From NCBI GenBank assembly GCA_002049455.2, contig KV919131.1:1-64000 (forward strand): a stretch of 64,000 bases of DNA, written 5' to 3'. The notes below the pieces were generated by a model. It was given only the letters and a program-made list of their open reading frames with translations. It had not been told where the DNA came from and made no database searches. This DNA comes from Porphyra umbilicalis (Eukaryota > Rhodophyta > Bangiophyceae > Bangiales > Bangiaceae). A program made the position numbers and the translations under genes. Shown here one piece after another: positions 2,732 through 57,760 of the stretch; the stretch's first letter is position 1, and each line of letters opens with the position of its first letter.

Positions 2732-5700
2732 TCAAAGCCCCGGAGACAGCTTGCGAGAAATCCACGGATAGAACGCATTCGTAAAGAAGCGCGCGTCGTG
2801 GCGACCGGCCGCCGTCTTCTCCAAATCCTCCGGCAGCGCCTCGAGACCGTACTTGGCACCAAGGTGGTACCAGTCCACCTGAACGTCCTCCAAGCATACA
2901 ATCTTGGTCATGTCGACGACGTCCAGCGCAGGCCACCCGTCAGAAGGATGGTTGAACGCCCAGGCCAGGCGCACGCACTTAAACTTCGAGAGTACGCAGT
3001 GGGGGCGAGCTGGCACTTGGCGCAAGCGTTGAAGGATGACACAGCACGTTCGCTGCGTAGCTACGGCGCGCAGAATGAGGCGCACGCGACCCCATGCTAC
3101 TTCTTCACCGTTGCCCGTGCTGTACTTGACGAAGGAGAACCACGGCTTCTTCATGAAGTTCTCGGTGGCGCGCACGTACTGCACATGGCGCTGGTAGCCG
3201 CAGTCGAGGCGCGCGGCGATCCGCACCGTCTTATGAAAGGAGACCTTGTCGTCGTCTTCAAGCGAAAGAAGGTTGGCGAGACCTGCCAGACCCCAGAGCA
3301 GCGCGAGGTCACCGATCGCCGCCTTGCGCCCTCGGCCAGTCACCGACACTCCCCCTGTTGTCATCAGCTCCTGGCGCGTCTGCGTGTCGTCCTCGTCGCT
3401 GGCCACGCCCTCCATGGGCTGCTCGCCCTGCTCAGTGGCGTCGATGTGGGAGAGCTCTAGGAGAATCTGCGACTGCGTCTCTTCGCACCTCATCATCTGC
3501 AGCGCAACATCCGGGCCGCGCTTGTTGCTGCGCCTGTACATGCGCTTGCAGGCGCCGTGAAGGCGCTCGTTGATGGATGTGTCGCCTTCCCACAGATTTC
3601 CGCGCTTCCGCAGCTCGTCCCCGAGGTGACGCGCAAGACGGTGCAGCTTGGTCGTGTGGATTTTGCCGTAAAGCGTCTGCACGTGGTCGATGGCGAGGGA
3701 TGTCGCCGCGTGCTCGAGCTTGTCAATGTCCTCGTCGAAAAGGACGTTGGGGTCTAGGACGTTGTCGCCAAACAAGAGGTTGTTGAGCTCTGCTGCCTTG
3801 CAAAACATAGTCAACACAGCGTCATGGATGGGCACGTTCTTGTACACCTTCCGATACTGCTCCGAAGTTGCCAGGTCGGGGCCGGGAAGCGCACCCATGG
3901 GCTCCTCGGCGACTGCAAACACATCTCCGTCCACATCGCCCCACCCGTCGGTGAAGTACCCGGCGTCATTCTCCGTGTTCGGTGTCGGTGATGCGAGATG
4001 CGAGTTTCCTGCGACTGCAGTCGCCCCCCCCGCGGCGTCGTCAGCGTCGGTGGGTGGTCCGACCACGCCCGCGACCATGAAAGGCCAGTACGGGCAGAAG
4101 TGACGCCAGTTGCGCCCTGTCATCGTCGCTTGTTTGACCGCCGGCGGCACAAAACACCTGAGATAGCAGCGATAAATGACCGAGAAAAGGATACGGGGTA
4201 GACATACAACGTTGAGGAAAAAACAACAGGGGGGGACACGTTGCGTCAGGGTCGGCGCATGGGTCCACTCAGACTTGGATAGGTACTCACAGTGAACGCG
4301 ATAATCGCATTGCCGCCCAGACCCACACGTAGACTAACACGTCAGCGCATGTAGAACAAGTCACAGAGAAACGTACCCAGGCGTGGAGGGCGATGCTTTG
4401 CAAAGGCGTCCGAGGTGGAAGCCCCGTTGGTTGATGGTATCCATCGTCACCTGCACAGAGCCGAGTCGGGCAGGCATGGTTTTCCCGCCGCAAACCGACT
4501 CGAGGAAGGCCGGCAGCCGCTGCGCCAGCATGCGAAGCACGCCCAACTTCCATACATGCAGGACGTCGAAAGAAACGATGTCGTACAAGTTGCAGCCGCC
4601 AGTGCTCAAGCCATGCATTGCTCCAAGAACCGGGACAAAGGCCAGCGCACTGTGTGCGTCGCCAATCGCCTTGCGGAGGCCCGGTCGTGGGTCATCCCGC
4701 CGGACGAGCGCCGCCGCAAGCTGCGCCTCAAGGACTTGCACCACCGGCCGCCTTTCGTTGGCGGACCGGTTCTGGCCGCCACCGGCCAGGCGGCTGATCA
4801 TGCAGTGGGAGCAGTAGAAGTTGCATTGATTGCCCATGAGACAGAGCAGGTTGCGCTCCTCCACCTGGTCGACGACCAACCCGACAACACGGGGTACGAG
4901 GCGCATCATGCCGTGCCCTGCGACTTCCGCAGACACGCCTGTCGCACTGGCCGCAATCAGCTTTTGGAGAGCAATCGCCAGGCAACGCTGCAGGAGGTCA
5001 TTGCGAATGTCGGAAACTTCGAGCCGCGCCGCTGCTGAACTCTTGTCCGCCTTTGGCACGTGCTCAACGTAGCCAATCGTCACCCAAGCGCCCCCATCAT
5101 CCAGCACGTTGGCATACCTGGCACGCACAGGGAAGATGTGATGGGCGCCGGACCAAGACACAAGCGCCTCGTCAGCGTGCAACAGGATGGCCATCACACG
5201 AACGTTTTCTCCATGGATGCGCTTCACGTCCTTGGCCTCGTTGCAATAAAGGTCCGAGTCGAGTGTGCCCCGACGTGGCCAATGCTGTCGTGTCCCACTC
5301 GATCGTGCCGTCGCCGGACGCGGCTGCCCTAGAAAGCGCGTTTCTGTGGAGGCACGGAATGCCGCCACCGAGGCTCCCGACGCGGCGGCAGTCCCCGGAG
5401 TTGTCCCAGTGACGATGCTGCCGCTGCCGCTGCTAACGATAGTCCGTCGGCTGCGCGGCAACGGCATGATCTCCTCGTCGCTTCCGCCGTCGCTACCGCC
5501 GAGACCTTGCATACCGCTCGATCGTGACACAGCCGCAGCTCCCATGCCACTGCCGATACCAGTGCCGTCGCGCACAGCGGCGTCGCCGTCACCAATGGCG
5601 TCGCCATCAGAGACATTGGCGGTGCCTGACGAGCCACATGCAGGTCCAACTCGTCCCGACATCTCCCAGGCCGGAGGGGGGCAGTCGCTGCGCGTGAGCC

Positions 5701-21690: not shown

Positions 21691-21826
21691 TACAGCCGTT
21701 CTCCCAAAAATCCCGCACTCCAACAATTGCAAAAGAGTTCCAAATCGGCCTCTATGACCCCGCAGAGGCCGATTTGGAACTCTTTTGCAACAGTTGGAGT
21801 GCCGGATTTTTGGGAGAACGGCTGTA
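21691..21826. mobile_element. Palindromic MITE, copy 1
   Basis: A 136-bp near-perfect foldback. It begins TACAGCCGTTCTCCCAAAAA and ends with the reverse complement, with TA at both ends and a loop of about 10 bp. TA duplication and CAG-type ends fit a Tc1/mariner-type MITE. Two further full copies lie at 21992 and 38716. Confidence 0.88.
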
Positions 21827-21991: not shown

Positions 21992-22127
21992 TACAGCCGT
22001 TCTCCCGAAAATCCCGCACTCCAACTGCTGCAAAAGAGTTCCAAATCGGCCTCTGCAGGGTCGTAGAGGCCGATTTCGAACTCTTTTGCAACTGTTGGAG
22101 TGCGGGATTTTTGGGAGAACGGCTGTA
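21992..22127. mobile_element. Palindromic MITE, copy 2
   Basis: Same 136-bp foldback as copy 1 with a few substitutions (for example CCCGAAAATCCC near the left end) and a different loop. Flanked by TA on both sides. It lies 165 bp after copy 1. Confidence 0.88.
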
Positions 22128-38622: not shown

Positions 38623-39432
38623 TAGAGAGCGTCGGCAAGTCGGGCGTGGGTATCAAATGTGGGTAGAATGTGGGTCGCCGACCCACGTCAGAAGTACCCA
38701 CATCTTACCCACATTTACAGCCGTTCTCCCAAAAATCTCGCACTCCAACTGTTGCGAAAGAGTTCCAAATCGGCCTCTGCGGGGTGGTAGAGGCCGATTT
38801 GGAACTCTTTTGCGACAGTTGGAGTGCGGGATTTTTGGGAGAACGGCTGTAGCGTCGGCAAGTGCCCAAGCAACGGTCGACACGATTTGAGCTCTCCACA
38901 TCTACCGCAACGGCACAGCAGCGACCTCTGTGCGAGCAACACCTTCCAACTGACCTCCACCCCAAGCACCATCACCCCCACCCCCCCTGGGGGGGCGCCC
39001 CAGCCGACCATATGACAGGGACGGCGGCGGTCGATGGAGATGGGGTGCAGTGGGCAGAGTGCGAGTTCTGGGTGGAGGGGCGCCGGCAGTTAAGGGCGTG
39101 GGGGGGGGGGGGGTGACGGCATCGGGGGGGCCATGGTGCCGGTTGGCAAAGGCAGCTTGTACGGTGCATGATGATGCGCCTTCTCGATACACACGGAACT
39201 GGAGACACAAGCGCACGTGGTGGGCGCCCAGCCCGGGCTGGGACGAGTGGTGGTGGCACAACTAGCGCCACGTGTGTGGCCACAGCGGTCTTCACCGACC
39301 GGTATTTAGCGTGGGTCGGATGACCCAGATAGCCACAAATGGGTTCCAAATGTGGGTAGCAGATGCTACGTGGCACGAAACGTGTCGCCGACCCTCGCCA
39401 CCGACCCACATTTGACTTGCCGACGCTCTCTA
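38623..39432. mobile_element. Inverted-repeat element with 19-bp perfect ends, nested with a MITE
   Basis: Left end TAGAGAGCGTCGGCAAGTC, exact reverse complement at 39414-39432. Both ends are TA-flanked and followed inside by AAATGTGGGT-type repeats. A third partial copy of the end (GCGTCGGCAAGT) lies right after the MITE at 38852, so this may be two related elements or one rearranged copy. No coding capacity. Confidence 0.65.
38716..38851. mobile_element. Palindromic MITE, copy 3
   Basis: Same 136-bp foldback family as at 21691 and 21992, with TA at both ends. It sits inside the left part of the 38623-39432 inverted-repeat element, so it inserted later. Confidence 0.88.
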
Positions 39433-41189: not shown

Positions 41190-42005
41190 TCACGTTTCGC
41201 GCCCCGGCACGACCGACGCACAATCAAAGGGGAGCCCCCCCAGGGCCAACCGCTGCCCCTTGAGCGACGCCGCCGCCACCCCACCCGTCACCGATGAGTG
41301 CGTCGCGCGCACAGCCGCACGCGGCGCCAGCAGCCCCCCTTTCAGATCCGCGCGGTGGAGCACCACCCGCGTCACGCCGCACGCCACCCACATCGTCTGG
41401 CGCGGCGTTACCCCCTCCACCCGCACGTCGGTCAAGCGCAGCGCCGCCGCCCCGTCGCCAGGCTCCCCATACACGGCGATGAAGAGCGCGTGCGGCGCGG
41501 TGCCGACGAGCCGCACGACACGCGCGTGGCGCAGGGCGGCGGTCGAGACGGCACACTCCACGTCGTTGGTCGTGCCGTTGGCCGTCAAGCGCACCTCCCG
41601 CACGCCATCGGCGACGATTGCGGTCGTTGTCACGCAGCGGGCGACGGGCTCGTTGCAAGTCACGTCGGCGAGGCCGGCCGCCGCGTCGGCCAGCCCGTCC
41701 GTGTCTGCCGAGCGGCCAACTGTGAGGGCTGGCGGCGCCGCTGCGTCTGCGCCCGCGGGCGCGGGCGCAGTAAGCGTGACGGCGGCGAAGCACGCGACGC
41801 CACCGATCGCCGCCAGCCCGTCAATGGTCCCGCCCGCCGCCCCCGCCGAGCCCGACGTGAGGAGCGCGTAGGGGGCGATGCGCGCGCAGGCGGTCGTCTC
41901 GACGGGCGGTGGGTCGGGGGGGTCCGCCGCTGCCGCCGACGCGGCGGCTGTGACGGCCAACAACGGGCCGGCGAGCAGCAAGAGGAGCACGGCGGGGACC
42001 CCCAT
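41190..42005 (-). CDS. Secreted protein of unknown family
   Basis: ATG 42005 begins MGVPAVLLLLLAGPLLAVTA, a clear signal peptide with cleavage likely near the Ala-rich end. The frame stays open another 45 codons upstream without useful sequence. The mature 240 or so residues have several Cys (ETTACARIAPYALL, ADVTCNEPVARCVTTTAI, NDVECAVSTAA, MWVACGVTRVV) and a regular alternation of short hydrophobic strands (VREVRLTANGTT, ARVVRLVGTAPHALFIAVYG, VTRVVLHRADLKGG). This would suit a beta-rich, perhaps beta-helix, fold. No catalytic motif recognised. It ends abruptly at 41190 after a Pro-Phe-Asp-Cys segment, so a 3' truncation is possible. Confidence 0.55.
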   Translation of the reverse strand: MGVPAVLLLLLAGPLLAVTAAASAAAADPPDPPPVETTACARIAPYALLTSGSAGAAGGTIDGLAAIGGVACFAAVTLTAPAPAGADAAAPPALTVGRSADTDGLADAAAGLADVTCNEPVARCVTTTAIVADGVREVRLTANGTTNDVECAVSTAALRHARVVRLVGTAPHALFIAVYGEPGDGAAALRLTDVRVEGVTPRQTMWVACGVTRVVLHRADLKGGLLAPRAAVRATHSSVTGGVAAASLKGQRLALGGLPFDCASVVPGRET

Positions 42006-42764
42006 GGTGCCGCGGGCGGACACGGGCAGCGGCGGGGGCAGCGGCGGTGGCGAGCGCGGTGGCGGCAGCGGGCGCGGCGGCGGCGGCGGTCGCGGTCGGC
42101 CACCGGCGACCGCCATGCGCACGTCGCCGGGTGGCGACACCTACAAATATGTCCACCGCCGGGTTCGCCCGCCCCAGTTTGGTGCCCACCGGGCAGAGCA
42201 CGTGAAAGAAGGTCATTCCGGCGTAAAGGGGGGCCCGACGGCCGCTCTGCGGCAGCGGGGGCGTAGGGCGCGTTGCGCGCAGCGATCACGCGCGGGATTA
42301 GCGCGTGTCGCCGGCCGAGGCACTGCCACGTTTGGGGTGGAAGGGCAGAGATTTGCTGCTCAACCGAGTGTCTACTTGTGGAAGCAACCTCCACACACAA
42401 CTCGTACAAGACAAGTCGTACTTGCCGATGCTGATCGTGTCGTGGTTTGCCGTCCAAGAAGTCACCTTCACCGAAATGTGTCTTCAAAGGTTATTTTGCT
42501 GTTCACTACATTCCGCAGCTCGTTGCAAGTCATGTGCTTTTCAGACGTCGTGGCCGGCCAAGTCCTCAACCACAACCCCCCTCGCCGCCCGAGATACGGC
42601 CATCCGCCGCCCACCCGCACCGCCTCGCACTGCTCCCCATCGTCTTGGCGGTTCTGGGCGCCGACCGAGCCGATCGCCGCCGCCTTCGGGGCGCCCCGCC
42701 TTCCCATTGTACTGCTTTGTTGAGCGGCGAACCAGACCTGCTGGGTGCGGCTGCGGTCCTTGTC
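42006..42764. other. Divergent intergenic region before SRP54
   Basis: Between the secreted-protein start (minus) and the presumed SRP54 transit-peptide ATG (plus). Moderate GC from 42340 to 42560. No gene seen; likely promoter DNA for both neighbours. Confidence 0.4.
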
Positions 42765-44569
42765 ATGGAACCCGTGGTGGCTCGGTGTGGCGGCGTGACG
42801 GCGTTTGCGACGACCCCGTGGGCGGCGGCGGCGGCGGCGGCAACGACGCCGACCGCCGCCCTGACCCGCGCCCGCCCCGTGTGGCTGACCGGCTCGACGG
42901 GCGTCGGAAAGGCGGCTGGCGGTTGTGCGCTGCTTGCGCCCCTGCCGTCGGCGGCGATACCACAAACGCGGCGGCGCCATGGGTCCCCGAGCGCCCCCCC
43001 CCCCCCCCCCCCCCCCCGGCGCGGCGCCGCTGTCCATGATGTTTGAGTCGCTCGCAGAAAAGATGGACCAGACGGTGCGGAAGCTCCGCGGCACCGACAA
43101 GATGACGGAAGCCAACATTGGGGGCGCCCTCAAGGAGGTCCGCCGCGCGATGCTCGACGCGGACGTCAACCTCCGCGTCGTCAACCAGCTCATTGCGGAT
43201 GTGCGGGAGCGGGCCGTCGGGCAGGATGTGGTGGCGGGGGTGGAGCCCGGCCAGCAGTTTATCAAGATCATTTACGAGGAGCTGACGCGCGTCATGGGCA
43301 AAGATGCCGCCCCGCTGTCGACGCGGGCGGCCGGCGCGGGGCCGACGGTCGTGCTGCTGGCGGGCCTGCAGGGCGCCGGTAAGACGACGGCGGCGGCCAA
43401 GCTGGCGCTCTACGTCAAGTCCCGCAAGGCCGAAAAGCCGAGCGCGGCGGCGGCGCTCGAGGCCAACCCGCCGCCGGCGCCGCCGGCACCGACGGGCCCG
43501 CCGCCCAAGGTGCTCCTCGTCGCCTGCGACGTGTACCGGCCGGCGGCGGTGGAGCAGCTGCAGACGCTCGCGGGGATGATTGACGTGGACGTGTTTACAG
43601 ACGACCTGTCGCTCGGCGCGGTGGAGATTGCGCGGCGGGGCCTCGCGGTGGCGACCGAAGGCAAGTATCACACGGTCATTATCGACACGGCCGGCCGGCA
43701 GGTCATCAATGACAAGCTGATGCGGGAGCTCCGGGATGTCAAGGCGGCGGCCAAGCCCGACGAGACGCTCCTCGTCGTGGACGCCATGACAGGCCAGGAG
43801 GCGGCCAACCTCACCCGCGCCTTCAACGACGATGTCGGCATCACGGGTGCCATCCTCACCAAACTCGACGGTGACACGCGGGGCGGCGCCGCCCTGTCGG
43901 TCCAATCCGTGTCGGGCAAGCCGATCAAGTTCGTCGGCACGGGCGAAAAGGTCGAGCGCCTCGAGCCCTTCTTCCCCGAGCGGATGGCGTCGCGCATCCT
44001 CGGCATGGGCGACGTGCTGACGCTCGTCGACAAGGCGGAGGAGGCGATGGACGCCAAGGAGGCCGAGGCACTGACCAAGCGCATGGTCGACAACACGTTT
44101 GACTTTGAGGACTTTCTCAAACAGTCCAAGATGATTTCCACGATGGGGTCCTTTGGCGGCCTGATGAAGATGCTGCCGGGCGTCGGCAGCATCTCGGGGC
44201 AGCAAATGGCGGCGGCGGAGCAAAAGCTCAAGCTCGCCACCTGCCTCATCAACTCGATGACGCCGACGGAGCGCAAGCAGCCCGACCTGCTCGCCAGCGG
44301 GGGGCGGCCACCTCCCGCCTCACCCGCATCGCCCGCGGCTCGGGGCGGACGGTGGCCGACGCCAAGACGCTCGTGTCGGACTTTCAGCGCATGCGCACGA
44401 TGATGGCCAAGATGAGCAAAAAGATGCTGGCGGAGCAAGCCGGGGGGGGGGGGGGCCGGGCGGCCTGGGCGGGCCGGGCGCCGGGGCGCCCGCCCTCAAC
44501 CGCGCGCAGCGGCGCAAGGCGAGCAAGAAGAAGGCGCAAAGCGCGCCCAAGCGAGGCTTTGGAAAGTAG
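42765..44569 (+). CDS. cpSRP54 (ffc-like): Chloroplast SRP54-type GTPase, 5'-complete copy, frame-broken
   Basis: GTPase of the plastid signal recognition particle, which delivers proteins to the thylakoid. From MMFESLAEKMDQTVRKLRGT (ATG 43036) the N domain has ANIGGALKEVRRAMLDADVN. The G domain has G1 GLQGAGKTT, then DVYRPAAVEQLQ, DTAGRQ, TKLDGDTRGGAA and GTGEK. The M domain follows (RILGMGDVLTLVDKAEEAMD, GGLMKMLPG). A Pro/Ala-rich insert of about 25 residues sits between G1 and G2. A likely transit peptide starts at ATG 42765 (MEPVVARCGGVTAFATTPW) but is separated from the N domain by 24 C (42994-43017) and one frame. A short start at 42979 (MGPRAP) needs no shift. At about 44300 a run of 6 G instead of 7 puts the M-domain end out of frame; the in-frame stop of the other copies is at 44567-44569. 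Tail RRKASKKKAQSAPKRGFGK is basic. Confidence 0.9.
42994..43017 (+). repeat. 24-nt C homopolymer in SRP54 5' region
   Basis: Run of 24 C between the transit-peptide-like frame and the N-domain frame. A one-base length change joins the two. Confidence 0.9.
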
Positions 44570-45479
44570 GGGGGCGGGGGCGGGGCGGGAGATGTGTGGG
44601 GACGACCGCAGAGCAAGCTGCTCTGCCGTCTGTGTGCGTGCCGGGCGCTGCTGCCCCCTTTTTGTTTGCTGCCCGCCACGAGTGGGGAAGCACCCGTCGG
44701 AAGGACGACAAACGCTCCGTCCTTGTGGCCGGCCAACTCTGATATTCGCAGCTGCAGCCGAAACTCGATGAGAAATCTCATACAGTGTGCCGCACGTTTC
44801 GAGCGGGCAGGATCCTCGGCCGTTGTGCGTCTGGCTTCCAGACGTTTCGTGCTCACTCGGGCAAGGCACCCGGACCGGCGCGGAGCGGCGCTGTTTGCTC
44901 GTTGCGTAGCCCGCCACAGACACCACCAGCTCCCACGGGCGGCCGCGAGATCCCGGGCAGGTGCTTGAGTGGGAAAATCTGACTCGACGCGGGACCTTGA
45001 TGACCCCGCACGCGACGGCGCAGGGGTCGGGGAGGCGCCCTGAGATTTTCCGTGGCGCCAACACGGCTGTAGGGAATCCATAGACCGGTCACGCGTCTCG
45101 ACGTCCAGGAGGACAAGGGCCAGCGGGCGGCTCGGAAGCCACCCGCACCCCGTGCAGGAGCGTCTCGCATCGGGCGAGGTCCCAGTACCGCCTGGACGCA
45201 TCGTTGCGTCCGTTGAGAGCCCCCCCTGACGCGCCCACGGCGCCGAGAGCGCCGGCGCCTCGGGCGGGGTCTGCCGGCCGAACCCCTCGCCGTCAACGCC
45301 GGCACTGTGGCGGCCCAATTGACGGGAAAAACGGCCGTGCTGAGCGACCCTACCAAGGGGCGTACAGTCGACAAACCGCCACGCAGGACGGATCTGCAAC
45401 GAGCTCCCGCGGCGGCCGCGCGCACGTGCGCCACGGACCGCCGGCGCCGCTCCACGGCGTGCGCACGCCGTGGAGCGCG
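44570..45479. other. Spacer DNA of the array unit
   Basis: The 0.9-kb 3' part of unit 1, repeated after each SRP54 fragment. Starts with a G-rich stretch after the stop codon. It has an inverted motif (GTCTGGCTTCCAGAC) and ends in the palindrome junction. No conserved gene seen on either strand; long open frames differ between units only through homopolymers. Confidence 0.5.
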
Positions 45480-46360
45480 CCGGCCGGCAGGTCATCAATG
45501 ACAAGCTGATGCGGGAGCTCCGGGATGTCAAGGCGGCGGCCAAGCCCGACGAGACGCTCCTCGTCGTGGACGCCATGACAGGCCAGGAGGCGGCCAACCT
45601 CACCCGCGCCTTCAACGACGATGTCGGCATCACGGGTGCCATCCTCACCAAACTCGACGGTGACACGCGGGGCGGCGCCGCCCTGTCGGTCCAATCCGTG
45701 TCGGGCAAGCCGATCAAGTTCGTCGGCACGGGCGAAAAGGTCGAGCGCCTCGAGCCCTTCTTCCCCGAGCGGATGGCGTCGCGCATCCTCGGCATGGGCG
45801 ACGTGCTGACGCTCGTCGACAAGGCGGAGGAGGCGATGGACGCCAAGGAGGCCGAGGCACTGACCAAGCGCATGGTCGACAACACGTTTGACTTTGAGGA
45901 CTTTCTCAAACAGTCCAAGATGATTTCCACGATGGGGTCCTTTGGCGGCCTGATGAAGATGCTGCCGGGCGTCGGCAGCATCTCGGGGCAGCAAATGGCG
46001 GCGGCGGAGCAAAAGCTCAAGCTCGCCACCTGCCTCATCAACTCGATGACGCCGACGGAGCGCAAGCAGCCCGACCTGCTCGCCAGCGGGGGGGCGGCCA
46101 CCTCCCGCCTCACCCGCATCGCCCGCGGCTCGGGGCGGACGGTGGCCGACGCCAAGACGCTCGTGTCGGACTTTCAGCGCATGCGCACGATGATGGCCAA
46201 GATGAGCAAAAAGATGCTGGCGGAGCAAGCCGGGGGGGGGGGGGGGCCGGGCGGCCTGGGCGGGCCGGGCGCCGGGGCGCCCGCCCTCAACCGCGCGCAG
46301 CGGCGCAAGGCGAGCAAGAAGAAGGCGCAAAGCGCGCCCAAGCGAGGCTTTGGAAAGTAG
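45480..46360 (+). pseudogene. Truncated SRP54 copy B
   Basis: Lacks the N domain and G1-G3. Begins at GRQVINDKLMRELRDVKAAA and keeps TKLDGD, GTGEK and the whole M domain. Seven G at the first run and 15 G at the second keep the frame to the basic tail and stop 46360. The first in-frame ATG would be Met in KLMRELRD. Without the P-loop it cannot be a working GTPase; a stand-alone M-domain protein is conceivable. Confidence 0.85.
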
Positions 46361-47271
46361 GGGGGCGGGGGCGGGGCGGGAGATGTGTGGGGACGACCGC
46401 AGAGCAAGCTGCTCTGCCGTCTGTGTGCGTGCCGGGCGCTGCTGCCCCCTTTTTGTTTGCTGCCCGCCACGAGTGGGGAAGCACCCGTCGGAAGGACGAC
46501 AAACGCTCCGTCCTTGTGGCCGGCCAACTCTGATATTCGCAGCTGCAGCCGAAACTCGATGAGAAATCTCATACAGTGTGCCGCACGTTTCGAGCGGGCA
46601 GGATCCTCGGCCGTTGTGCGTCTGGCTTCCAGACGTTTCGTGCTCACTCGGGCAAGGCACCCGGACCGGCGCGGAGCGGCGCTGTTTGCTCGTTGCGTAG
46701 CCCGCCACAGACACCACCAGCTCCCACGGGCGGCCGCGAGATCCCGGGCAGGTGCTTGAGTGGGAAAATCTGACTCGACGCGGGACCTTGATGACCCCGC
46801 ACGCGACGGCGCAGGGGTCGGGGAGGCGCCCTGAGATTTTCCGTGGCGCCAACACGGCTGTAGGGAATCCATAGACCGGTCACGCGTCTCGACGTCCAGG
46901 AGGACAAGGGCCAGCGGGCGGCTCGGAAGCCACCCGCACCCCGTGCAGGAGCGTCTCGCATCGGGCGAGGTCCCAGTACCGCCTGGACGCATCGTTGCGT
47001 CCGTTGAGAGCCCCCCCCTGACGCGCCCACGGCGCCGAGAGCGCCGGCGCCTCGGGCGGGGTCTGCCGGCCGAACCCCTCGCCGTCAACGCCGGCACTGT
47101 GGCGGCCCAATTGACGGGAAAAACGGCCGTGCTGAGCGACCCTACCAAGGGGCGTACAGTCGACAAACCGCCACGCAGGACGGATCTGCAACGAGCTCCC
47201 GCGGCGGCCGCGCGCACGTGCGCCACGGACCGCCGGCGCCGCTCCACGGCGTGCGCACGCCGTGGAGCGCG

Positions 47272-48152
47272 CCGGCCGGCAGGTCATCAATGACAAGCTG
47301 ATGCGGGAGCTCCGGGATGTCAAGGCGGCGGCCAAGCCCGACGAGACGCTCCTCGTCGTGGACGCCATGACAGGCCAGGAGGCGGCCAACCTCACCCGCG
47401 CCTTCAACGACGATGTCGGCATCACGGGTGCCATCCTCACCAAACTCGACGGTGACACGCGGGGCGGCGCCGCCCTGTCGGTCCAATCCGTGTCGGGCAA
47501 GCCGATCAAGTTCGTCGGCACGGGCGAAAAGGTCGAGCGCCTCGAGCCCTTCTTCCCCGAGCGGATGGCGTCGCGCATCCTCGGCATGGGCGACGTGCTG
47601 ACGCTCGTCGACAAGGCGGAGGAGGCGATGGACGCCAAGGAGGCCGAGGCACTGACCAAGCGCATGGTCGACAACACGTTTGACTTTGAGGACTTTCTCA
47701 AACAGTCCAAGATGATTTCCACGATGGGGTCCTTTGGCGGCCTGATGAAGATGCTGCCGGGCGTCGGCAGCATCTCGGGGCAGCAAATGGCGGCGGCGGA
47801 GCAAAAGCTCAAGCTCGCCACCTGCCTCATCAACTCGATGACGCCGACGGAGCGCAAGCAGCCCGACCTGCTCGCCAGCGGGGGGGCGGCCACCTCCCGC
47901 CTCACCCGCATCGCCCGCGGCTCGGGGCGGACGGTGGCCGACGCCAAGACGCTCGTGTCGGACTTTCAGCGCATGCGCACGATGATGGCCAAGATGAGCA
48001 AAAAGATGCTGGCGGAGCAAGCCGGGGGGGGGGGGGGGCCGGGCGGCCTGGGCGGGCCGGGCGCCGGGGCGCCCGCCCTCAACCGCGCGCAGCGGCGCAA
48101 GGCGAGCAAGAAGAAGGCGCAAAGCGCGCCCAAGCGAGGCTTTGGAAAGTAG
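47272..48152 (+). pseudogene. Truncated SRP54 copy C
   Basis: Same extent as copy B. Seven-G and 15-G runs, so the M domain is in frame to stop 48152. Its spacer carries G rather than A at the GCGC(A/G)GGG site near 48605. Confidence 0.85.
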
Positions 48153-49063
48153 GGGGGCGGGGGCGGGGCGGGAGATGTGTGGGGACGACCGCAGAGCAAG
48201 CTGCTCTGCCGTCTGTGTGCGTGCCGGGCGCTGCTGCCCCCTTTTTGTTTGCTGCCCGCCACGAGTGGGGAAGCACCCGTCGGAAGGACGACAAACGCTC
48301 CGTCCTTGTGGCCGGCCAACTCTGATATTCGCAGCTGCAGCCGAAACTCGATGAGAAATCTCATACAGTGTGCCGCACGTTTCGAGCGGGCAGGATCCTC
48401 GGCCGTTGTGCGTCTGGCTTCCAGACGTTTCGTGCTCACTCGGGCAAGGCACCCGGACCGGCGCGGAGCGGCGCTGTTTGCTCGTTGCGTAGCCCGCCAC
48501 AGACACCACCAGCTCCCACGGGCGGCCGCGAGATCCCGGGCAGGTGCTTGAGTGGGAAAATCTGACTCGACGCGGGACCTTGATGACCCCGCACGCGACG
48601 GCGCGGGGGTCGGGGAGGCGCCCTGAGATTTTCCGTGGCGCCAACACGGCTGTAGGGAATCCATAGACCGGTCACGCGTCTCGACGTCCAGGAGGACAAG
48701 GGCCAGCGGGCGGCTCGGAAGCCACCCGCACCCCGTGCAGGAGCGTCTCGCATCGGGCGAGGTCCCAGTACCGCCTGGACGCATCGTTGCGTCCGTTGAG
48801 AGCCCCCCCCTGACGCGCCCACGGCGCCGAGAGCGCCGGCGCCTCGGGCGGGGTCTGCCGGCCGAACCCCTCGCCGTCAACGCCGGCACTGTGGCGGCCC
48901 AATTGACGGGAAAAACGGCCGTGCTGAGCGACCCTACCAAGGGGCGTACAGTCGACAAACCGCCACGCAGGACGGATCTGCAACGAGCTCCCGCGGCGGC
49001 CGCGCGCACGTGCGCCACGGACCGCCGGCGCCGCTCCACGGCGTGCGCACGCCGTGGAGCGCG

Positions 49064-49943
49064 CCGGCCGGCAGGTCATCAATGACAAGCTGATGCGGGA
49101 GCTCCGGGATGTCAAGGCGGCGGCCAAGCCCGACGAGACGCTCCTCGTCGTGGACGCCATGACAGGCCAGGAGGCGGCCAACCTCACCCGCGCCTTCAAC
49201 GACGATGTCGGCATCACGGGTGCCATCCTCACCAAACTCGACGGTGACACGCGGGGCGGCGCCGCCCTGTCGGTCCAATCCGTGTCGGGCAAGCCGATCA
49301 AGTTCGTCGGCACGGGCGAAAAGGTCGAGCGCCTCGAGCCCTTCTTCCCCGAGCGGATGGCGTCGCGCATCCTCGGCATGGGCGACGTGCTGACGCTCGT
49401 CGACAAGGCGGAGGAGGCGATGGACGCCAAGGAGGCCGAGGCACTGACCAAGCGCATGGTCGACAACACGTTTGACTTTGAGGACTTTCTCAAACAGTCC
49501 AAGATGATTTCCACGATGGGGTCCTTTGGCGGCCTGATGAAGATGCTGCCGGGCGTCGGCAGCATCTCGGGGCAGCAAATGGCGGCGGCGGAGCAAAAGC
49601 TCAAGCTCGCCACCTGCCTCATCAACTCGATGACGCCGACGGAGCGCAAGCAGCCCGACCTGCTCGCCAGCGGGGGGGCGGCCACCTCCCGCCTCACCCG
49701 CATCGCCCGCGGCTCGGGGCGGACGGTGGCCGACGCCAAGACGCTCGTGTCGGACTTTCAGCGCATGCGCACGATGATGGCCAAGATGAGCAAAAAGATG
49801 CTGGCGGAGCAAGCCGGGGGGGGGGGGGGCCGGGCGGCCTGGGCGGGCCGGGCGCCGGGGCGCCCGCCCTCAACCGCGCGCAGCGGCGCAAGGCGAGCAA
49901 GAAGAAGGCGCAAAGCGCGCCCAAGCGAGGCTTTGGAAAGTAG
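49064..49943 (+). pseudogene. Truncated SRP54 copy D
   Basis: As copy B but with 14 G at the second run, so the frame leaves the native tail. It reads into RAAWAGRAPGRPPSTARSG and on to a stop at 50145. Confidence 0.85.
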
Positions 49944-50854
49944 GGGGGCGGGGGCGGGGCGGGAGATGTGTGGGGACGACCGCAGAGCAAGCTGCTCTGC
50001 CGTCTGTGTGCGTGCCGGGCGCTGCTGCCCCCTTTTTGTTTGCTGCCCGCCACGAGTGGGGAAGCACCCGTCGGAAGGACGACAAACGCTCCGTCCTTGT
50101 GGCCGGCCAACTCTGATATTCGCAGCTGCAGCCGAAACTCGATGAGAAATCTCATACAGTGTGCCGCACGTTTCGAGCGGGCAGGATCCTCGGCCGTTGT
50201 GCGTCTGGCTTCCAGACGTTTCGTGCTCACTCGGGCAAGGCACCCGGACCGGCGCGGAGCGGCGCTGTTTGCTCGTTGCGTAGCCCGCCACAGACACCAC
50301 CAGCTCCCACGGGCGGCCGCGAGATCCCGGGCAGGTGCTTGAGTGGGAAAATCTGACTCGACGCGGGACCTTGATGACCCCGCACGCGACGGCGCAGGGG
50401 TCGGGGAGGCGCCCTGAGATTTTCCGTGGCGCCAACACGGCTGTAGGGAATCCATAGACCGGTCACGCGTCTCGACGTCCAGGAGGACAAGGGCCAGCGG
50501 GCGGCTCGGAAGCCACCCGCACCCCGTGCAGGAGCGTCTCGCATCGGGCGAGGTCCCAGTACCGCCTGGACGCATCGTTGCGTCCGTTGAGAGCCCCCCC
50601 CTGACGCGCCCACGGCGCCGAGAGCGCCGGCGCCTCGGGCGGGGTCTGCCGGCCGAACCCCTCGCCGTCAACGCCGGCACTGTGGCGGCCCAATTGACGG
50701 GAAAAACGGCCGTGCTGAGCGACCCTACCAAGGGGCGTACAGTCGACAAACCGCCACGCAGGACGGATCTGCAACGAGCTCCCGCGGCGGCCGCGCGCAC
50801 GTGCGCCACGGACCGCCGGCGCCGCTCCACGGCGTGCGCACGCCGTGGAGCGCG

Positions 50855-51734
50855 CCGGCCGGCAGGTCATCAATGACAAGCTGATGCGGGAGCTCCGGGA
50901 TGTCAAGGCGGCGGCCAAGCCCGACGAGACGCTCCTCGTCGTGGACGCCATGACAGGCCAGGAGGCGGCCAACCTCACCCGCGCCTTCAACGACGATGTC
51001 GGCATCACGGGTGCCATCCTCACCAAACTCGACGGTGACACGCGGGGCGGCGCCGCCCTGTCGGTCCAATCCGTGTCGGGCAAGCCGATCAAGTTCGTCG
51101 GCACGGGCGAAAAGGTCGAGCGCCTCGAGCCCTTCTTCCCCGAGCGGATGGCGTCGCGCATCCTCGGCATGGGCGACGTGCTGACGCTCGTCGACAAGGC
51201 GGAGGAGGCGATGGACGCCAAGGAGGCCGAGGCACTGACCAAGCGCATGGTCGACAACACGTTTGACTTTGAGGACTTTCTCAAACAGTCCAAGATGATT
51301 TCCACGATGGGGTCCTTTGGCGGCCTGATGAAGATGCTGCCGGGCGTCGGCAGCATCTCGGGGCAGCAAATGGCGGCGGCGGAGCAAAAGCTCAAGCTCG
51401 CCACCTGCCTCATCAACTCGATGACGCCGACGGAGCGCAAGCAGCCCGACCTGCTCGCCAGCGGGGGGGCGGCCACCTCCCGCCTCACCCGCATCGCCCG
51501 CGGCTCGGGGCGGACGGTGGCCGACGCCAAGACGCTCGTGTCGGACTTTCAGCGCATGCGCACGATGATGGCCAAGATGAGCAAAAAGATGCTGGCGGAG
51601 CAAGCCGGGGGGGGGGGGGGCCGGGCGGCCTGGGCGGGCCGGGCGCCGGGGCGCCCGCCCTCAACCGCGCGCAGCGGCGCAAGGCGAGCAAGAAGAAGGC
51701 GCAAAGCGCGCCCAAGCGAGGCTTTGGAAAGTAG
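50855..51734 (+). pseudogene. Truncated SRP54 copy E
   Basis: Last copy. Seven G then 14 G, so the tail frame is altered as in copy D and runs on to 51936. Its 3' spacer ends in the full palindrome and unique flanking DNA, so this end represents the original 3' side of the locus. Confidence 0.85.
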
Positions 51735-52597
51735 GGGGGCGGGGGCGGGGCGGGAGATGTGTGGGGACGACCGCAGAGCAAGCTGCTCTGCCGTCTGTGT
51801 GCGTGCCGGGCGCTGCTGCCCCCTTTTTGTTTGCTGCCCGCCACGAGTGGGGAAGCACCCGTCGGAAGGACGACAAACGCTCCGTCCTTGTGGCCGGCCA
51901 ACTCTGATATTCGCAGCTGCAGCCGAAACTCGATGAGAAATCTCATACAGTGTGCCGCACGTTTCGAGCGGGCAGGATCCTCGGCCGTTGTGCGTCTGGC
52001 TTCCAGACGTTTCGTGCTCACTCGGGCAAGGCACCCGGACCGGCGCGGAGCGGCGCTGTTTGCTCGTTGCGTAGCCCGCCACAGACACCACCAGCTCCCA
52101 CGGGCGGCCGCGAGATCCCGGGCAGGTGCTTGAGTGGGAAAATCTGACTCGACGCGGGACCTTGATGACCCCGCACGCGACGGCGCGGGGGTCGGGGAGG
52201 CGCCCTGAGATTTTCCGTGGCGCCAACACGGCTGTAGGGAATCCATAGACCGGTCACGCGTCTCGACGTCCAGGAGGACAAGGGCCAGCGGGCGGCTCGG
52301 AAGCCACCCGCACCCCGTGCAGGAGCGTCTCGCATCGGGCGAGGTCCCAGTACCGCCTGGACGCATCGTTGCGTCCGTTGAGAGCCCCCCCCTGACGCGC
52401 CCACGGCGCCGAGAGCGCCGGCGCCTCGGGCGGGGTCTGCCGGCCGAACCCCTCGCCGTCAACGCCGGCACTGTGGCGGCCCAATTGACGGGAAAAACGG
52501 CCGTGCTGAGCGACCCTACCAAGGGGCGTACAGTCGACAAACCGCCACGCAGGACGGATCTGCAACGAGCTCCCGCGGCGGCCGCGCGCACGTGCGC

Positions 52598-52659
52598 CAC
52601 GGACCGCCGGCGCCGCTCCACGGCGTGCGCACGCCGTGGAGCGGCGCCGGCGGTCCGTG
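52598..52659. repeat. 62-bp perfect palindrome at the array end
   Basis: Arms of 29 bp (CACGGACCGCCGGCGCCGCT then CCACGGCGT) around GCGC, itself self-complementary. Internal array junctions keep the left arm and centre but lose the right arm after CACGCCGTGGAGCG, where SRP54 coding sequence begins. The palindrome is therefore the breakpoint of the tandem duplication. Confidence 0.95.
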
Positions 52660-53149
52660 CCGCTGGGAGCGCGCCGCGGCCCCGCTTCGTCGCGCGCACC
52701 CCAGGCTGTGTCGCGTTGGGGCGCCCGTACAGTACAACCTGTGTTCGGCAGCAGCACTTTGCAGGTCGCACCACCGCACGGGGGCGCAGAGGCGCGCCCC
52801 CGCGTCGCGGTGCTGCTGCCGCCACAGGGGGCGTCCACAGCCGGGCGGGTTGAAGACTGGGTGCGGGTGCATCTGCACCTGGGCTGGGCGCGCTGGACGC
52901 ACCCTGGGTGGGCGCGGTCCGTGTTTTGCAACGCGCACCCGCAGACGAGCCCCCAGGTGGCCACGCGCGAGGGCGTTTGCCGAAACGGCTCTTGAGCACC
53001 GCCGCACCGGTCACCTGCGTCGCAAGGTGGTCCTCGTGCCCACACCGCCCACCCGCCACCGCCCTCTGCCCCGCCGACCGCCGGCGACGCGTCATCGCCC
53101 CCACCGACGTCCGCCACCACGCACGCGCCCGCCCCCTGCCGCACCAGCC
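52660..53149. other. Unique DNA between array and membrane-protein gene
   Basis: Frame open throughout on plus but without recognisable protein before the ATG at 53150. Ends in a C-rich stretch just before the start codon; probably promoter and 5' UTR. Confidence 0.45.
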
Positions 53150-54322
53150 ATGGCCGACGCTGGCGCACCCGTACCGTCGGCGCCGCCCCCCGCCGACGGG
53201 AGCAGCGACGCGTCGGCGGCCGACAATGGCGCCATCAAGAAGAGCCCGTCGATGCTCAGCCGCTACTCAACGCGCTCCACCGCGGCGGCGTTCAACCACG
53301 GGCTCTCCCGCCGCCGCACCGAGGCGGCGGGCCTCTTCACCCTCTGGTCGGCGTTTGTGCTCATCGAGGGCCTGATCCGCTTTGTGCGGAGCGACGCGAC
53401 GCGGGATTTGCTGCCCGACGGCCGCCCGTCGGACGTCATCCCCCCGCTGCTGCCCTTCCTCGGAGGCCTCTTTGAAGTCATTTTTGGCTTCACGGGCCTC
53501 GTCGTGGGCATTATTGAGCTCGCGTTTGCGAGCGGCGGCATCTTTGCCACCATCTGTTTCCTCATCATCCAAGTGCCCCTCAGCTGGTTCACCTTCATCG
53601 TATATGTGTTTATGATTCCGGCCTACCGGTGGCGCCTCGACCTGGTGACGGTCGTGGCCGGCACGACGCTGTCCGTGTCGCGCACACACGGCCTCATTGC
53701 CATGGGCGTCGTCACGTCGGTCGCGTTTTGCGCGGCGCTGCAGGGCGGCCAGTTTGTGTTTGCCCTCCGCCTCCTCGCCTACCAAGCGCAGCAAGCCCAG
53801 GAGCGGCCGTCGGCGGCGCTGACGACGGCTCTCACGCACGCAAGGCCGCGCGCGATCTTTTGGTGCGCCCTCTTCACCCTCGGCGGCGCGTCGACGCTCG
53901 CGGCGGGGGCGGTGCTCGCCGACGCCCTCGGCAGCGGGCGCGTCGACGCGCCCGCCTTTTACGCCTTCCCCCCACACGTTGGCGTGTACCCCGTCATGAC
54001 CGCCGTGACGGGGGGGGTGATGACCGTGTACGGGCTCGCGAGCGTTGCCGCCGCCGCGGGCGTGGGGGCCCTCGTCGGGCCGACCGTACACGCCCTGCCG
54101 CTGGTGTTTGCGCTCATGTTTGTCAACTTTGCGCTCGTGCAGGTGGCGTCCATCGGGTCCCCGGCGGCGGAGGTGGCCAACCTCCCGGGCCGCCTCGCGT
54201 TTGCGGCGGCGATGCACACGGGGCTGACGCTCGTGTCGGTGGTCATTGGGCCCTACTTTGTCGTGCGAGTCGGCAAGGAGGCGGACCCGGGGGGGGCACC
54301 GCCGGTGGTGGCCGCCGCCTAG
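53150..54322 (+). CDS. Multi-pass membrane protein, family not recognised
   Basis: 390 residues from ATG 53150 (context CCAGCCATGGCC). A Ser/Ala/Pro-rich cytosolic N-terminus (about 65 residues, with SMLSRYSTRSTAAAFNHGLS) precedes eight or nine hydrophobic segments. These include LFTLWSAFVLIEGLIRFV, LPFLGGLFEVIFGFTGLVVG, FATICFLIIQVPLSWFTFIV, HGLIAMGVVTSVAFCAAL, FWCALFTLGGASTLAAGAVL, PVMTAVTGGVMTVYGLASV, HALPLVFALMFVNFALVQVA and AMHTGLTLVSVVIGPYFVVR. The first two segments are separated by an acidic loop (RSDATRDLLPDGRPSDVIPP). Intron-less, no frame break, codon use like the other host genes. No transporter signature could be identified. Lies just beyond the SRP54 array. Confidence 0.8.
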   Translation: MADAGAPVPSAPPPADGSSDASAADNGAIKKSPSMLSRYSTRSTAAAFNHGLSRRRTEAAGLFTLWSAFVLIEGLIRFVRSDATRDLLPDGRPSDVIPPLLPFLGGLFEVIFGFTGLVVGIIELAFASGGIFATICFLIIQVPLSWFTFIVYVFMIPAYRWRLDLVTVVAGTTLSVSRTHGLIAMGVVTSVAFCAALQGGQFVFALRLLAYQAQQAQERPSAALTTALTHARPRAIFWCALFTLGGASTLAAGAVLADALGSGRVDAPAFYAFPPHVGVYPVMTAVTGGVMTVYGLASVAAAAGVGALVGPTVHALPLVFALMFVNFALVQVASIGSPAAEVANLPGRLAFAAAMHTGLTLVSVVIGPYFVVRVGKEADPGGAPPVVAAA

Positions 54323-57187
54323 AGGGGGGGCGGGGCCGCGCGGTGCGGTCATGAGCGCAACGGGGTTGTGGGTTGGCGGGGTGGGGAGGGGTGGGGCGAC
54401 GGGCGTGCCTTGTGTCTTTGTTTGCAGGGATTGGCGCAGCGTGCCGTTTTCCGAAGGCACAATGGCCGCTCCGGTTACTCTTTTGTTTTTCCCGTACCAT
54501 GGCGCCCGCGTCCACCAGTGATGGTCGCTGGTGCCCCAAAGCGCCCCCTCCGCGCGGACCGCGGCCGCACGCAACCACCATGCATGGTCCCATGCCACCA
54601 TGGTCGTGCATGCACGCGCGACTCGGGCGGGCCGTTCGTCAACAGCAAACAGCCGCGGGCGTGGCACCGCAGCGGGCAGCCACACACGCCGGGCCGTGCG
54701 GGCGGGGGCAAACCTCGGGGCGGGACCCCCACCCCCGCGCCACGCGCCGCCACAGCCGCGCGTCGTCGGCGGGTGTTCACGCGCCCAAATCACTTTTCGC
54801 TGCCGAGCATCGAGATGTGGGTCACTGCGTCGACGGTTGGGGCGGCCCCGAGGCCCCCCCAACCCCGCGCGCGCCGCCGCCGTCGCCGCCGCGCGCCGCC
54901 GCCGTCGCCGCCGCGCGCCGCCGCCGTCGCTGCCGCGCGCCGCCGCCGTCGCCGCCGCGCGCCGCCGCCGTCGCCGCCGCGCGCCGCCGCCGTCGCGGCC
55001 GCCCGCCGCCGCGCCCGCGGCGGCGGCGGCGCCAGCCCCCGCGCCAGCGCCTGCACCGGCGGCGGCAACGGCGGCGGCGGCCGCACCGGCGGCGGCGGCG
55101 GTGGAATGCCGTCCAGACTTCCACGCAGCACCGATGACACCGCATTTTCGTCGCCTTGCCACGTCGAGGTACCGCCTGCAGCGTCATCAGCGGGCCGTGG
55201 GCTCCACAAAAAGGCGTTCAAGACACCGGTGGGACGCCAGAAAAAACGTCCATCTCTCAAGCCTATCGTCGTAGCCGCTTGAAAGTGTGTCATCAAACAG
55301 CTGATGGAGGAGGCTCCAGGATGCGTCCATGCGGAGCGCCAACGCTCGTTCCATTGCCGAGTTCTGTGCGCGCCCGTATGAGTCGCGCTCATGCGCCTGA
55401 ATGTGTGGAAACGACCTTCCGGTGTGGGCAGCGGCGGTCCCGCGGCGTGCACGGGGTACGCCCCCCCCCCCCGGCACCCACCCCGCCGCGGCCGGCGGTG
55501 CGCGGCGCGGCCGCGCGGCCGCCGGCGGCGCTGCACCGGCGCGCCGACGGGCGGCGCGGCGGCGGCTGCCGCGTGGCGCGGCGCGGCGCGGCCGTGCGCC
55601 CGCGCGCGGCCGTGCGGCGCGCGCCGGGGGGGGGGGGAGGGGGCGCCCGTCGGCGGCCGCCGCCGCCACCGTCGCTGGGTGCCGCCAACATCCCGGTAGG
55701 CGGGGGCGGGGGGGGGGGGGGGCGGCGGCCCACCGCCGCCGCGGTGGGGCGGGGCGGGGTGGGGGGCGGGGGGGGGTGGCGCTGGGCGCGGCCGCACGCA
55801 CGCGGCCGCGTCGGCGTCCGCGTGGGGTCGTGGTCAGGTGCTCGGTGGTGGGGGTGGCGGCGGCCGTGGGGGGTGCTCGCGTGTCTTTTTTTTTTTTTTT
55901 GGTGTGTGAGCCGGCGCGGGGGCGGCGGCGCACGGGCGGTCGTGTTTGAGCACTGGGGCGCCGCCGGTGGGGGTGGGCGCCGTCTGACTTTGTGTGTGCC
56001 CCCTGTGCGTGCCCCTGGCCGACCCACGCGACGGCGGCGCGGCGGCGGCGGCGGCGGCGGGCGCGGGCGTGGGCGATTGTTTCTCCCGGATGCACGCCGC
56101 CCCGCTGACCGTCCTCCCCCTCGTCTCCACGGTGGGGGGAGGGCGCCGTCGCGTCGCTGCCGTCGGCGGTGCGCCATTCGACGCGCGGCGCGCGTCGCAC
56201 GAGCCGGCGGGTCGGTGGCGCGCGGCGAGGGCGCCGCCGCTGCCGTCGGGCCGCCGACGCAACGGCCGTCGACGAGGCGTGTGCCCCCGCCTTGAGGTTG
56301 AAGCGGAGCGTCATTGGGGGCGTACGCGTCGTCGCGCCGGTACCCGCCCTCGCTGCCGCCCGCCCGCCCGTGCCGACGTGCCACGGGGCGTCGGGCGCGC
56401 GGGCGCGGCCACCCTGTCGTGCGTACGCACACCCCCCTGGCGCACCGTCCCGACCGTCCACGGCGCCGTGCGGCCGACCCCGTGCACGCACGCGCGCCGC
56501 TGGCCGCGGCCGCAGCCTCCCACGGGGCGCCGGCGAGCGCCGCCCCCGCGGGCGGCGTGCGTCCCCCCTCCCCCGCGGGGCCGCCGGCGGCCACGATGCC
56601 CGTGGCGCCGGGCCGCTCGGCCGGCGGCCGGGAAGAAGACGGGGTCGTGTGGCGGCAGCGTCTGCCGCCACACGCACCCCTTCCGGCGGCGCGGGGCGGC
56701 TGCCTGCCGGACGGTCGGCGCGCACAACGGTGGGGGGGGTTGGCGCGCGGTTGGCGCCGCCCTGATCGACGGGCGGCACGTGGGCGGGCGCGTCGGTGAC
56801 GCGCGCGACGCATGGCGGGGCGGGGGTGGCTTGGGGGGGGGGGGGGGGGGAGGGGCGCGACACGGCCTCGTCTTTTCTTGACGACACGGCTCCGTGGGCA
56901 CATCCCGCCCGAGCAGCGTGAGGATTCTATTTCGAGGCCAACCAGCCACTCACACACGCCGCGCACGCCCTCCACCCCACAGACCCGGTGCCTGCCGCCC
57001 CGGCGCGCGCGCGCCGTTGCGCTGGCGGCTCTGCCAGTACTGCGGCCCGCCGCCCGCCACACTGAAAACGACGCCGCCCGCCCACCTGCTCGCATGCACG
57101 CCAGCGTCTCGCCTGCAGACGCCAGCTGGCGGCACCACCGTCAGGCCCGCGACCAGTCGAGGCCCAGCCGCCACCGCGACGGGAACG
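54323..57187. other. GC-rich intergenic region with minisatellite
   Basis: Very GC-rich, with a 22-bp minisatellite (54870-54992), G runs near 55630 and 55710, a run of 14 T near 55887, and many long but meaningless frames. A lower-GC island at 55090-55400 has an ordinary-looking minus-strand stretch (MERALALRMDASWSLLHQLF) but no recognisable domain. No gene supported. Confidence 0.5.
54870..54992 (+). repeat. 22-bp minisatellite
   Basis: Five to six copies of GTCGCCGCCGCGCGCCGCCG plus two bases, spaced exactly 22 bp. Because 22 is not a multiple of 3, each frame cycles through the same three peptides (APPPSPP, RAAAVAA, RRRR), so the open frames across it are artefacts. Confidence 0.85.
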
Positions 57188-57760
57188 CTATCCGCAGGAG
57201 GTCCCCAAGTACCGACGCGGGGTGGAGGGCCGCCACAGTGCCCACCAGCCACGCGCCCAAACCTCCCCCGCGTCGCAACTGCAGGGCCGGGGCGGGCGCC
57301 CCGCGCCTCCGCGCCCTCGTGAGGGTGCCTCCTCCAAGTCAACAATGGCCTCGCGAATAGCAACCGCCTGCACGTCCTCATTTCCTTTGCAGCCGACCAC
57401 AGTACTGAGAGCAAGTTGCAGCTGCGCCCGCGCGTTGTCCGGCTCCCCCAGACCCCGCAGCACCATGGCCAGCTCGTGCTGGGACCGCGCCACGTCGAGG
57501 TGTTTGTCGCCCAGCGCCGCCACCTTTTTCTGTACCACCGCCGGCAGCAACGCCCGCGCCTCGTCTAGGCTCCCTTTCTTGCGCAGCACCACGGCCAGCT
57601 CGTGCTCGGACCGTGCCACGCAGAGGTGCCTCTCCCCAAACGTCACCGCCTCCTTGCGCACCACCGCCGTCAGCAGCGCCTGCGCTTGGACTAGCTCCCC
57701 CTGGCTCCGCAGCACCAACGTCAGCTCAAACTCGGACCGCGCCACGTCGACGTGTCCGTC
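57188..57760 (-). CDS. TPR protein (kinesin-light-chain-type repeats), partial model
   Basis: Three consecutive 42-residue tetratricopeptide repeats of the TPR_10/12 type: HVDVARSEFELTLVLRSQGE, HLCVARSEHELAVVLRKKGS and HLDVARSQHELAMVLRGLGE. Each is followed by a second helix (ARALLPAVVQKKVAALGDK and equivalents). A fourth partial repeat (NARAQLQLALSTVV) and a short helix (VQAVAIREAIVDLEEA) end the domain. TPRs bind partner proteins; no specific partner can be named. A plausible acceptor (GTGTGAGCAG) precedes the exon at 57761. The upstream exon was not resolved; the frame is open to 58072 without likeness to anything. The last 45 residues before the stop at 57188 look non-native, so the true end may be earlier or spliced. 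Confidence 0.65.
   Translation of the reverse strand, partial: DGHVDVARSEFELTLVLRSQGELVQAQALLTAVVRKEAVTFGERHLCVARSEHELAVVLRKKGSLDEARALLPAVVQKKVAALGDKHLDVARSQHELAMVLRGLGEPDNARAQLQLALSTVVGCKGNEDVQAVAIREAIVDLEEAPSRGRGGAGRPPRPCSCDAGEVWARGWWALWRPSTPRRYLGTSCG

Follow-up and report, generated by a model that had tools for sequence, protein, structure and literature searches.

The window analysed here comprises the first 64,000 nucleotides of contig KV919131.1 of the red alga Porphyra umbilicalis (GenBank assembly GCA_002049455.2), and all positions are given in window coordinates; the contig is 71,020 bases long and the whole assembly 83.8 Mb. Within it lies a gene that appears to encode a plastid-type SRP54 (cpSRP54; SRP, signal recognition particle), the 3' part of which is found in five head-to-tail units of approximately 1.79 kb each, extending from 43690 to 52651. 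The units start at 43690, 45479, 47271, 49063 and 50854, giving spacings of 1789, 1792, 1792 and 1791. A preliminary description of this DNA had proposed a five-fold tandem amplification of the SRP54 3' half in units of about 1.79 kb, and both parts of that proposal are borne out, by the five direct copies from 43690 and by the measured spacing of 1789-1792. Every unit runs from codons for DTAGR, which we take to be the G3 motif, to the end of SRP54, beyond which about 0.9 kb of non-coding DNA leads into a palindrome. The first 'unit' (43690..45478, + strand, 1789 bp) extends from the G3-motif codons through the SRP54 3' end and the 3' non-coding sequence to take in the palindrome's left arm and core. 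It belongs to the sole copy that possesses the SRP54 5' half, forming the 3' portion of that copy, and the array contains four joins. The SRP54 fragments of units 2 (45479..47270, + strand, 1792 bp), 3 (47271..49062, + strand, 1792 bp) and 4 (49063..50853, + strand, 1791 bp) are open to 46360, 48152 and 50145, respectively, the tail of the last lying in another frame (14 G versus 15). Unit 5 (50854..52651, + strand) has a fragment open to 51936 and goes on through the complete palindrome to the 3' flank, and the M domain is whole in each of units 2 to 5.

Aligned up to the join, the units vary at four places, consisting of one A/G substitution and three homopolymer lengths. The substitution, at 45022, reads A, A, G, A, G in units 1-5 and is the only one up to the join in about 9 kb; the interleaving of the two bases suggests either exchange between units or a mix of two alleles. 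At G6/G7 (44299) and at C7/C8 (45220) the shorter form is present in unit 1 only, and at G14/G15 (44442) there are 14 in units 1, 4 and 5 and 15 in units 2 and 3. A genome search with 43690-45500, in which the best candidates were scored, listed 10 matches, namely the five units on the + strand and five short minus-strand self-matches of the palindrome, and none of the matches listed places the unit on another contig. A transposon or other dispersed repeat was rejected as a cause, given that the unit occurs at this locus only among the matches listed. With a contig of 71,020 bases the array is interior, ending approximately 18 kb before the contig end, and both of its ends run into sequence that lacks a second copy, namely, on the left, the cpSRP54 5' half and, on the right, the right arm of the palindrome and beyond. 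For that 5' half (42979-43689) the genome offers no further copy, the sole other match being a short one on contig C6 (64 query bases, 82%). Downstream of the array, an open frame at 53150..54322 (+ strand) has hydrophobic stretches and no Pfam match.

The palindrome and the join

The palindrome at 52598..52659 is perfect, with 62 bp, 31-nt arms, no loop and a centre at 52628/52629. The runner-up among perfect zero-loop palindromes in the window has 16-nt arms, and in 100 first-order Markov simulations of the window the longest arms were 12, versus the 31 observed. The preliminary description had reported this 62-bp palindrome, complete in the last unit only, and both points held up, the first against the simulations and the second in the unit alignment; its statement that units end in the left half and centre can be refined, as the internal units retain the entire left arm and a 30-bp core (15-nt arms), such that each join is still a short palindrome. 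Around it, an extended quasi-palindrome (52574..52684) is 86% self-complementary and folds, as DNA, at -67.1 kcal/mol (z -8.1, 200 shuffles). Elsewhere in the genome we find two palindrome matches of 73-75% (contigs C7 and C232), both in GC-rich sequence, and another of 71% in stretch L040. At the C7 place both strands match (72-75%), which makes it loosely self-complementary, and the two stretches around the C7 and C232 matches contain no palindrome with arms of at least 25 (at most 2 mismatches). Since the palindrome has no close copy elsewhere, the join was not one between dispersed repeats.

Palindromes with arms of at least 25 (at most 2 mismatches, loop of at most 10, low complexity filtered out) number 4 in the window versus 1 in the 21 stretches L025-L045. 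Separately, a near-perfect 60-bp hairpin (25-nt arms, 10-nt loop) occurs at 21729-21788, 22030-22089 and 38754-38813. An 88-bp query around the 21729 copy gave 523 first-look candidates, and all 40 scored places, itself included, matched at 95% or more; by its sequence this is a putative dispersed hairpin element resembling a miniature inverted-repeat transposable element (MITE).

At each join the right arm of the palindrome (GTGGAGCGGCGCCGGCGG) passes through the junction (GTGGAGCGCGCCGGCCGG) into SRP54 sequence (ACGGCCGGCCGG), and the switch into the SRP54 G domain that had been described earlier was recovered at 43690. The junction 22-mer at 45470..45491 (+ strand) recurs at 47262, 49054 and 50845, and a search of the assembly allowing up to 2 mismatches returned 4 exact occurrences, all within the array, and none of the reversed control pattern. 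A short GC-rich overlap, previously given as CGCCGG, does exist at this point, but it is better written as GCCGGC (6 bp, shared by 52646-52651 and 43690-43695) and requires an adjacent 1-base deletion, the join having a single G where the palindrome has GG (52643-52644) and being consequently not clean. As the same 1-base deletion is present in all four joins, they most likely descend from one event that was then copied.

How readily such an overlap arises by chance depends on how the join is read. Among random breakpoint pairs in the collapsed locus, read without gaps, at least 6 bp are common in 0.35% or 0.40% (two runs). A null matched to the join, with random breakpoints plus one inserted base and one adjacent 1-base deletion allowed, yields an overlap of at least 6 in 231/200,000 (0.12%); it supersedes another indel-allowing control (0.69%) that was unlike the observed join in its build. 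By length, a breakpoint would fall within the 62-bp palindrome in approximately 0.2% of cases (collapsed window, two breakpoints). These figures bear on what we consider the likeliest of the alternative origins, though in itself an unlikely one, namely that one chromatid broke in the palindrome and its sister in the SRP54 G domain, that non-homologous end joining united the two broken ends while adding a single base, the overlap being accidental, and that the same expansion as is set out below then followed. Read without gaps, the join indeed has no overlap and one extra base, and in the excerpted text of a study of yeast CUP1 arrays (PMC4232551) end joining is the route favoured for junctions that mostly share 3 bp or less; however, the matched null, which itself includes one inserted base, reaches the observed overlap in just 231 of 200,000 trials.

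The frequency of arrays in this genome was gauged from 15 stretches of 10 kb taken at stepped contig numbers (a non-random sample), the criterion being that 60 or more 25-mers recur at a single spacing between 300 and 5000. This criterion was passed by three of the 15 (L036, L037, L044) and by one (L026) of six further stretches, five of which surround matches and one of which is the end of this contig. L036 (contig C72, 30001-40000) is filled head to tail with units of about 4.19 kb that are 97% alike, the sole such case among the 15, and has no Rfam match at gathering scores; long tandem arrays thus exist elsewhere in this assembly. The cpSRP54 array appears to stand out by its near identity and its palindromic join, L036 having been compared by its period and the likeness of its units. 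The window also contains a tandem repeat at 57442-57746 (period 126, 2.4 copies, 73% matches).

Gene content and reading frames of the copies

The sole copy of cpSRP54 with a 5' half occupies 42979..44403 (+ strand), with an in-frame ATG at 42979 or 43036, the two starts being separated by 19 proline-rich residues, the stretch considered for a plastid targeting peptide. The stretch 42979-44298 carries all three Pfam families (SRP54_N, the SRP54 GTPase and the SRP_SPB M domain), although the M-domain match stops at profile position 58 of 91, with the remainder matching in another frame. Among the best 60 of 81 matches to solved structures, the closest relatives are bacterial-type SRP proteins (7o5b_g, 8.8e-110), followed by a chloroplast SRP54 (5l3r_A, 5.7e-84), and 5l3q_A (5e-53), 4ue5_D (6.8e-53) and 2j37_W (1.2e-51), presumably mammalian cytosolic SRP54 chains, match more weakly than 5l3r_A. 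This ranking points to a plastid-type protein, with greater affinity to the SRP54 of bacteria and chloroplasts than to that of the eukaryotic cytosol. A second SRP54, on contig C419, is of the cytosolic type as judged by eye, and the genome also has genes that we name, from a reading of their frames, FtsY (C121) and SRP receptor alpha (C484). The single SRP RNA match listed, of bacterial type, lies on contig C665, as do 4 of the 12 phycobilisome-linker matches listed (the other 8 are spread across seven other contigs); in view of the usual gene content of red-algal plastids, these matches indicate that C665 is probably the plastid contig. According to the excerpted text of PMC10269134, cpSRP54 occurs in red algae, and diatom cpsrp54 mutants are light-sensitive.

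On contig C138 (2800-3500, stretch L048), 170 residues scanned on the minus strand match only SRP_SPB (1.3e-7), with no GTPase domain. This frame has weak matches to solved structures, including 6z1p_AT ('Signal peptide-binding domain protein', E 0.073), which we take to be a ciliate mitoribosome entry.

Copies 2-5 have no gene start codon, no N domain and no P-loop. Their GTPase-domain matches all (4/4) begin at profile position 90 of 196, and SRP54_N is absent from units 2 and 4, the two that were scanned against Pfam. Such copies are most likely by-products without SRP function. That they are instead kept for useful M-domain products or transcripts is very improbable in our view: the M domain reads through in all four truncated copies, an SRP RNA gene is present on the presumed plastid contig, and a short frame with an M-domain match alone is encoded elsewhere in the genome, but recent copies are expected to have intact frames anyway, the copies are too similar for a test of selection, and the open frame has no in-frame ATG in its first 55 codons, the earliest one falling within what is left of the G domain. 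The non-coding part of the unit gave no Pfam match at 0.001 in four of its many reading frames, nor did Rfam return anything at gathering scores for 42000-54500, and a second gene within the unit as selected cargo was rejected on these grounds.

In unit 1 the M-domain match is divided between two frames at 44295/44307, and the cpSRP54 frame is interrupted within the M domain, either at the G6 run (44299) or next to it, so that at face value the assembly contains no intact cpSRP54. Similar breaks occur in related genes: FtsY (L028) changes frame in a stretch with a G6 run at 4029-4034, where the exact switch point is not fixed, and SRP receptor alpha (L029) does so at a G7 run at 4612-4618, both as seen by eye in three-frame translations, and a short intron may instead be the cause in these two genes. 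Overall, three of four SRP-GTPase genes change frame by a G6/G7 run, the cytosolic-type SRP54 being the one that does not. Because FtsY and SRP receptor alpha also shift at such runs, the likeliest explanation of the break in unit 1 is an assembly error through homopolymer miscounting, the functional copy being, most likely, unit 1. The least probable of all the readings considered is that the break is real, with the 5' half and an unbroken M domain residing in different units of a switchable or self-correcting locus, a working gene arising only in those cells or nuclei in which recombination joins unit 1 to a later unit. The doubt over homopolymers extends to G14/G15 and C7/C8, leaving a single trustworthy substitution, and unit-to-unit homopolymer differences were set aside as a record of history, their lengths looking unreliable in this assembly. 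The window holds 33 homopolymer runs of at least 12 bases (up to 28), of which 31 are C or G, five of these 31 being array copies; examples lie at 15814, 18154, 42994, 60558 and 61443.

A further explanation, which we also regard as unlikely and rank immediately after end joining, is that the array is in part or whole an artefact, the assembler having looped through fewer real units (perhaps two), or through one unit and another molecule carrying the join. The near identity of the units, the interleaving of A and G at 45022, which might reflect a mixture of two alleles, and the signs of homopolymer error seen by eye elsewhere in the assembly are all consistent with this. Nevertheless, the join must come from reads and is identical four times, the array lies inside a 71-kb contig with each flank distinct, and small differences are particular to units; moreover, the assembly contains another long-period array (about 4.19 kb), though this could be open to the same doubt.

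Proposed origin of the array

We consider, with moderate confidence, that the array probably represents a recent tandem duplication of a 1.79-kb piece by one illegitimate join, followed by homology-driven expansion. A break or stalled fork within the hairpin-forming palindrome, about 2 kb 3' of cpSRP54, would have freed an end in the right arm; this end may then have been ligated to, or have resumed synthesis at, the GCCGGC of the SRP54 G domain on the sister or the same chromatid, with the loss of one base, to give one head-to-tail repeat. Unequal exchange or break-induced copying between identical repeats could subsequently have raised the number to five units and kept them alike. That the hairpin was the cause is suggested by the coincidence of breakpoint and palindrome.

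Template switching, the end joining of two breaks and the reinsertion of a circle would all leave the same sequence, and the 6-bp overlap inclines us towards a microhomology route. The preliminary description had invoked fork stalling and template switching at the hairpin, followed by unequal exchange. One founding join inside the palindrome with a short overlap agrees with the first part, but template switching is only one possible route, and that claim is weakened in that the end joining of a hairpin-provoked break, or circle reinsertion, gives an identical sequence; the later spread by homology fares better, since one and the same 1-base deletion marks all four of the identical joins. If a 1.79-kb circle sealed at the palindrome/SRP54 join had been cut out and amplified, and had then returned to its own locus through homology, the circle junction would be identical in sequence to the tandem join, and in the excerpted text of PMC3521702 yeast cells are described that had first circles and later tandem duplications, a dynamic equilibrium being suggested by the authors. 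We nonetheless hold this origin to be quite improbable, as nothing specific to a circle was seen and the linear route is simpler. Inverted amplification, whether origin-dependent inverted-repeat amplification (ODIRA) or fold-back, was rejected because all five units lie on the + strand.

Several points weigh against a duplication that expanded by homology. Five is an apparent copy number, as assembled, and the single-copy ancestor is a presumed one. The A, A, G, A, G and G14/G15 patterns do not fit simple stepwise copying, with the caveat for the latter that homopolymer lengths in the assembly look unreliable. Furthermore, the gapless reading of the join removes the overlap altogether, and the palindrome coincidence of approximately 0.2% was spotted post hoc.

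The locus is a natural direct tandem array in a red alga whose sole join type sits in a long perfect palindrome, and if copy number varies between individuals it would offer a measure of hairpin-seeded tandem duplication outside yeast and mammals. For annotation it should also serve as a warning: none of the four copies lacking a 5' half is a cpSRP54 gene, and homopolymer errors are the probable reason why the full-length copy seems disrupted.

Comparison with known systems

A search of open-licence papers (titles and abstract openings, matches listed) found no published account of this array or of tandem red-algal SRP54 copies. Several described systems share some of its features. In palindromic amplification, fold-back priming and ODIRA a palindrome or short inverted repeat likewise lies at the breakpoint, yet in the excerpts of the accounts concerned (PMC7999016; PMC10766183) the products are inverted repeats, whereas all five cpSRP54 units are direct. 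Fork stalling and template switching/microhomology-mediated break-induced replication (FoSTeS/MMBIR), mentioned in the excerpted text of PMC3521702 as template switching at microhomology, offers a closer likeness. Features in common would be the short overlap, the small extra change beside the join and the direct orientation; in the array, direct copies do share one common join with a short overlap, which is 6 bp only with an adjacent 1-base deletion allowed. In contrast to FoSTeS/MMBIR, there is no complexity past one join, and the sequence equally fits end joining.

Among the cases consulted, the nearest described parallel is the yeast CUP1 array, as set out in the excerpted text of Zhao et al. 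2014 (PMC4232551). There, units of about 1.2-2 kb have grown head to tail from a single copy, and each repeat type is explained by one junction; some repeat types end within a neighbouring gene (CIC1, RSC30); and fragile sequences, including those that form secondary structure, are raised as a possible cause of breakage. The authors prefer end joining because most breakpoints have little or no homology, and they point out that break-induced replication mostly relies on extensive homology or on microhomology of 5-20 bp (PMC4232551). The CUP1 units differ in containing a whole gene with selectable copies, and in having junctions that share 3 bp or less (PMC4232551), whereas the cpSRP54 array repeats a gene without its 5' half, has no known selection and has one of its breakpoints in a long perfect palindrome. 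A tandem duplication with one illegitimate join, followed by expansion, is a known kind of event.

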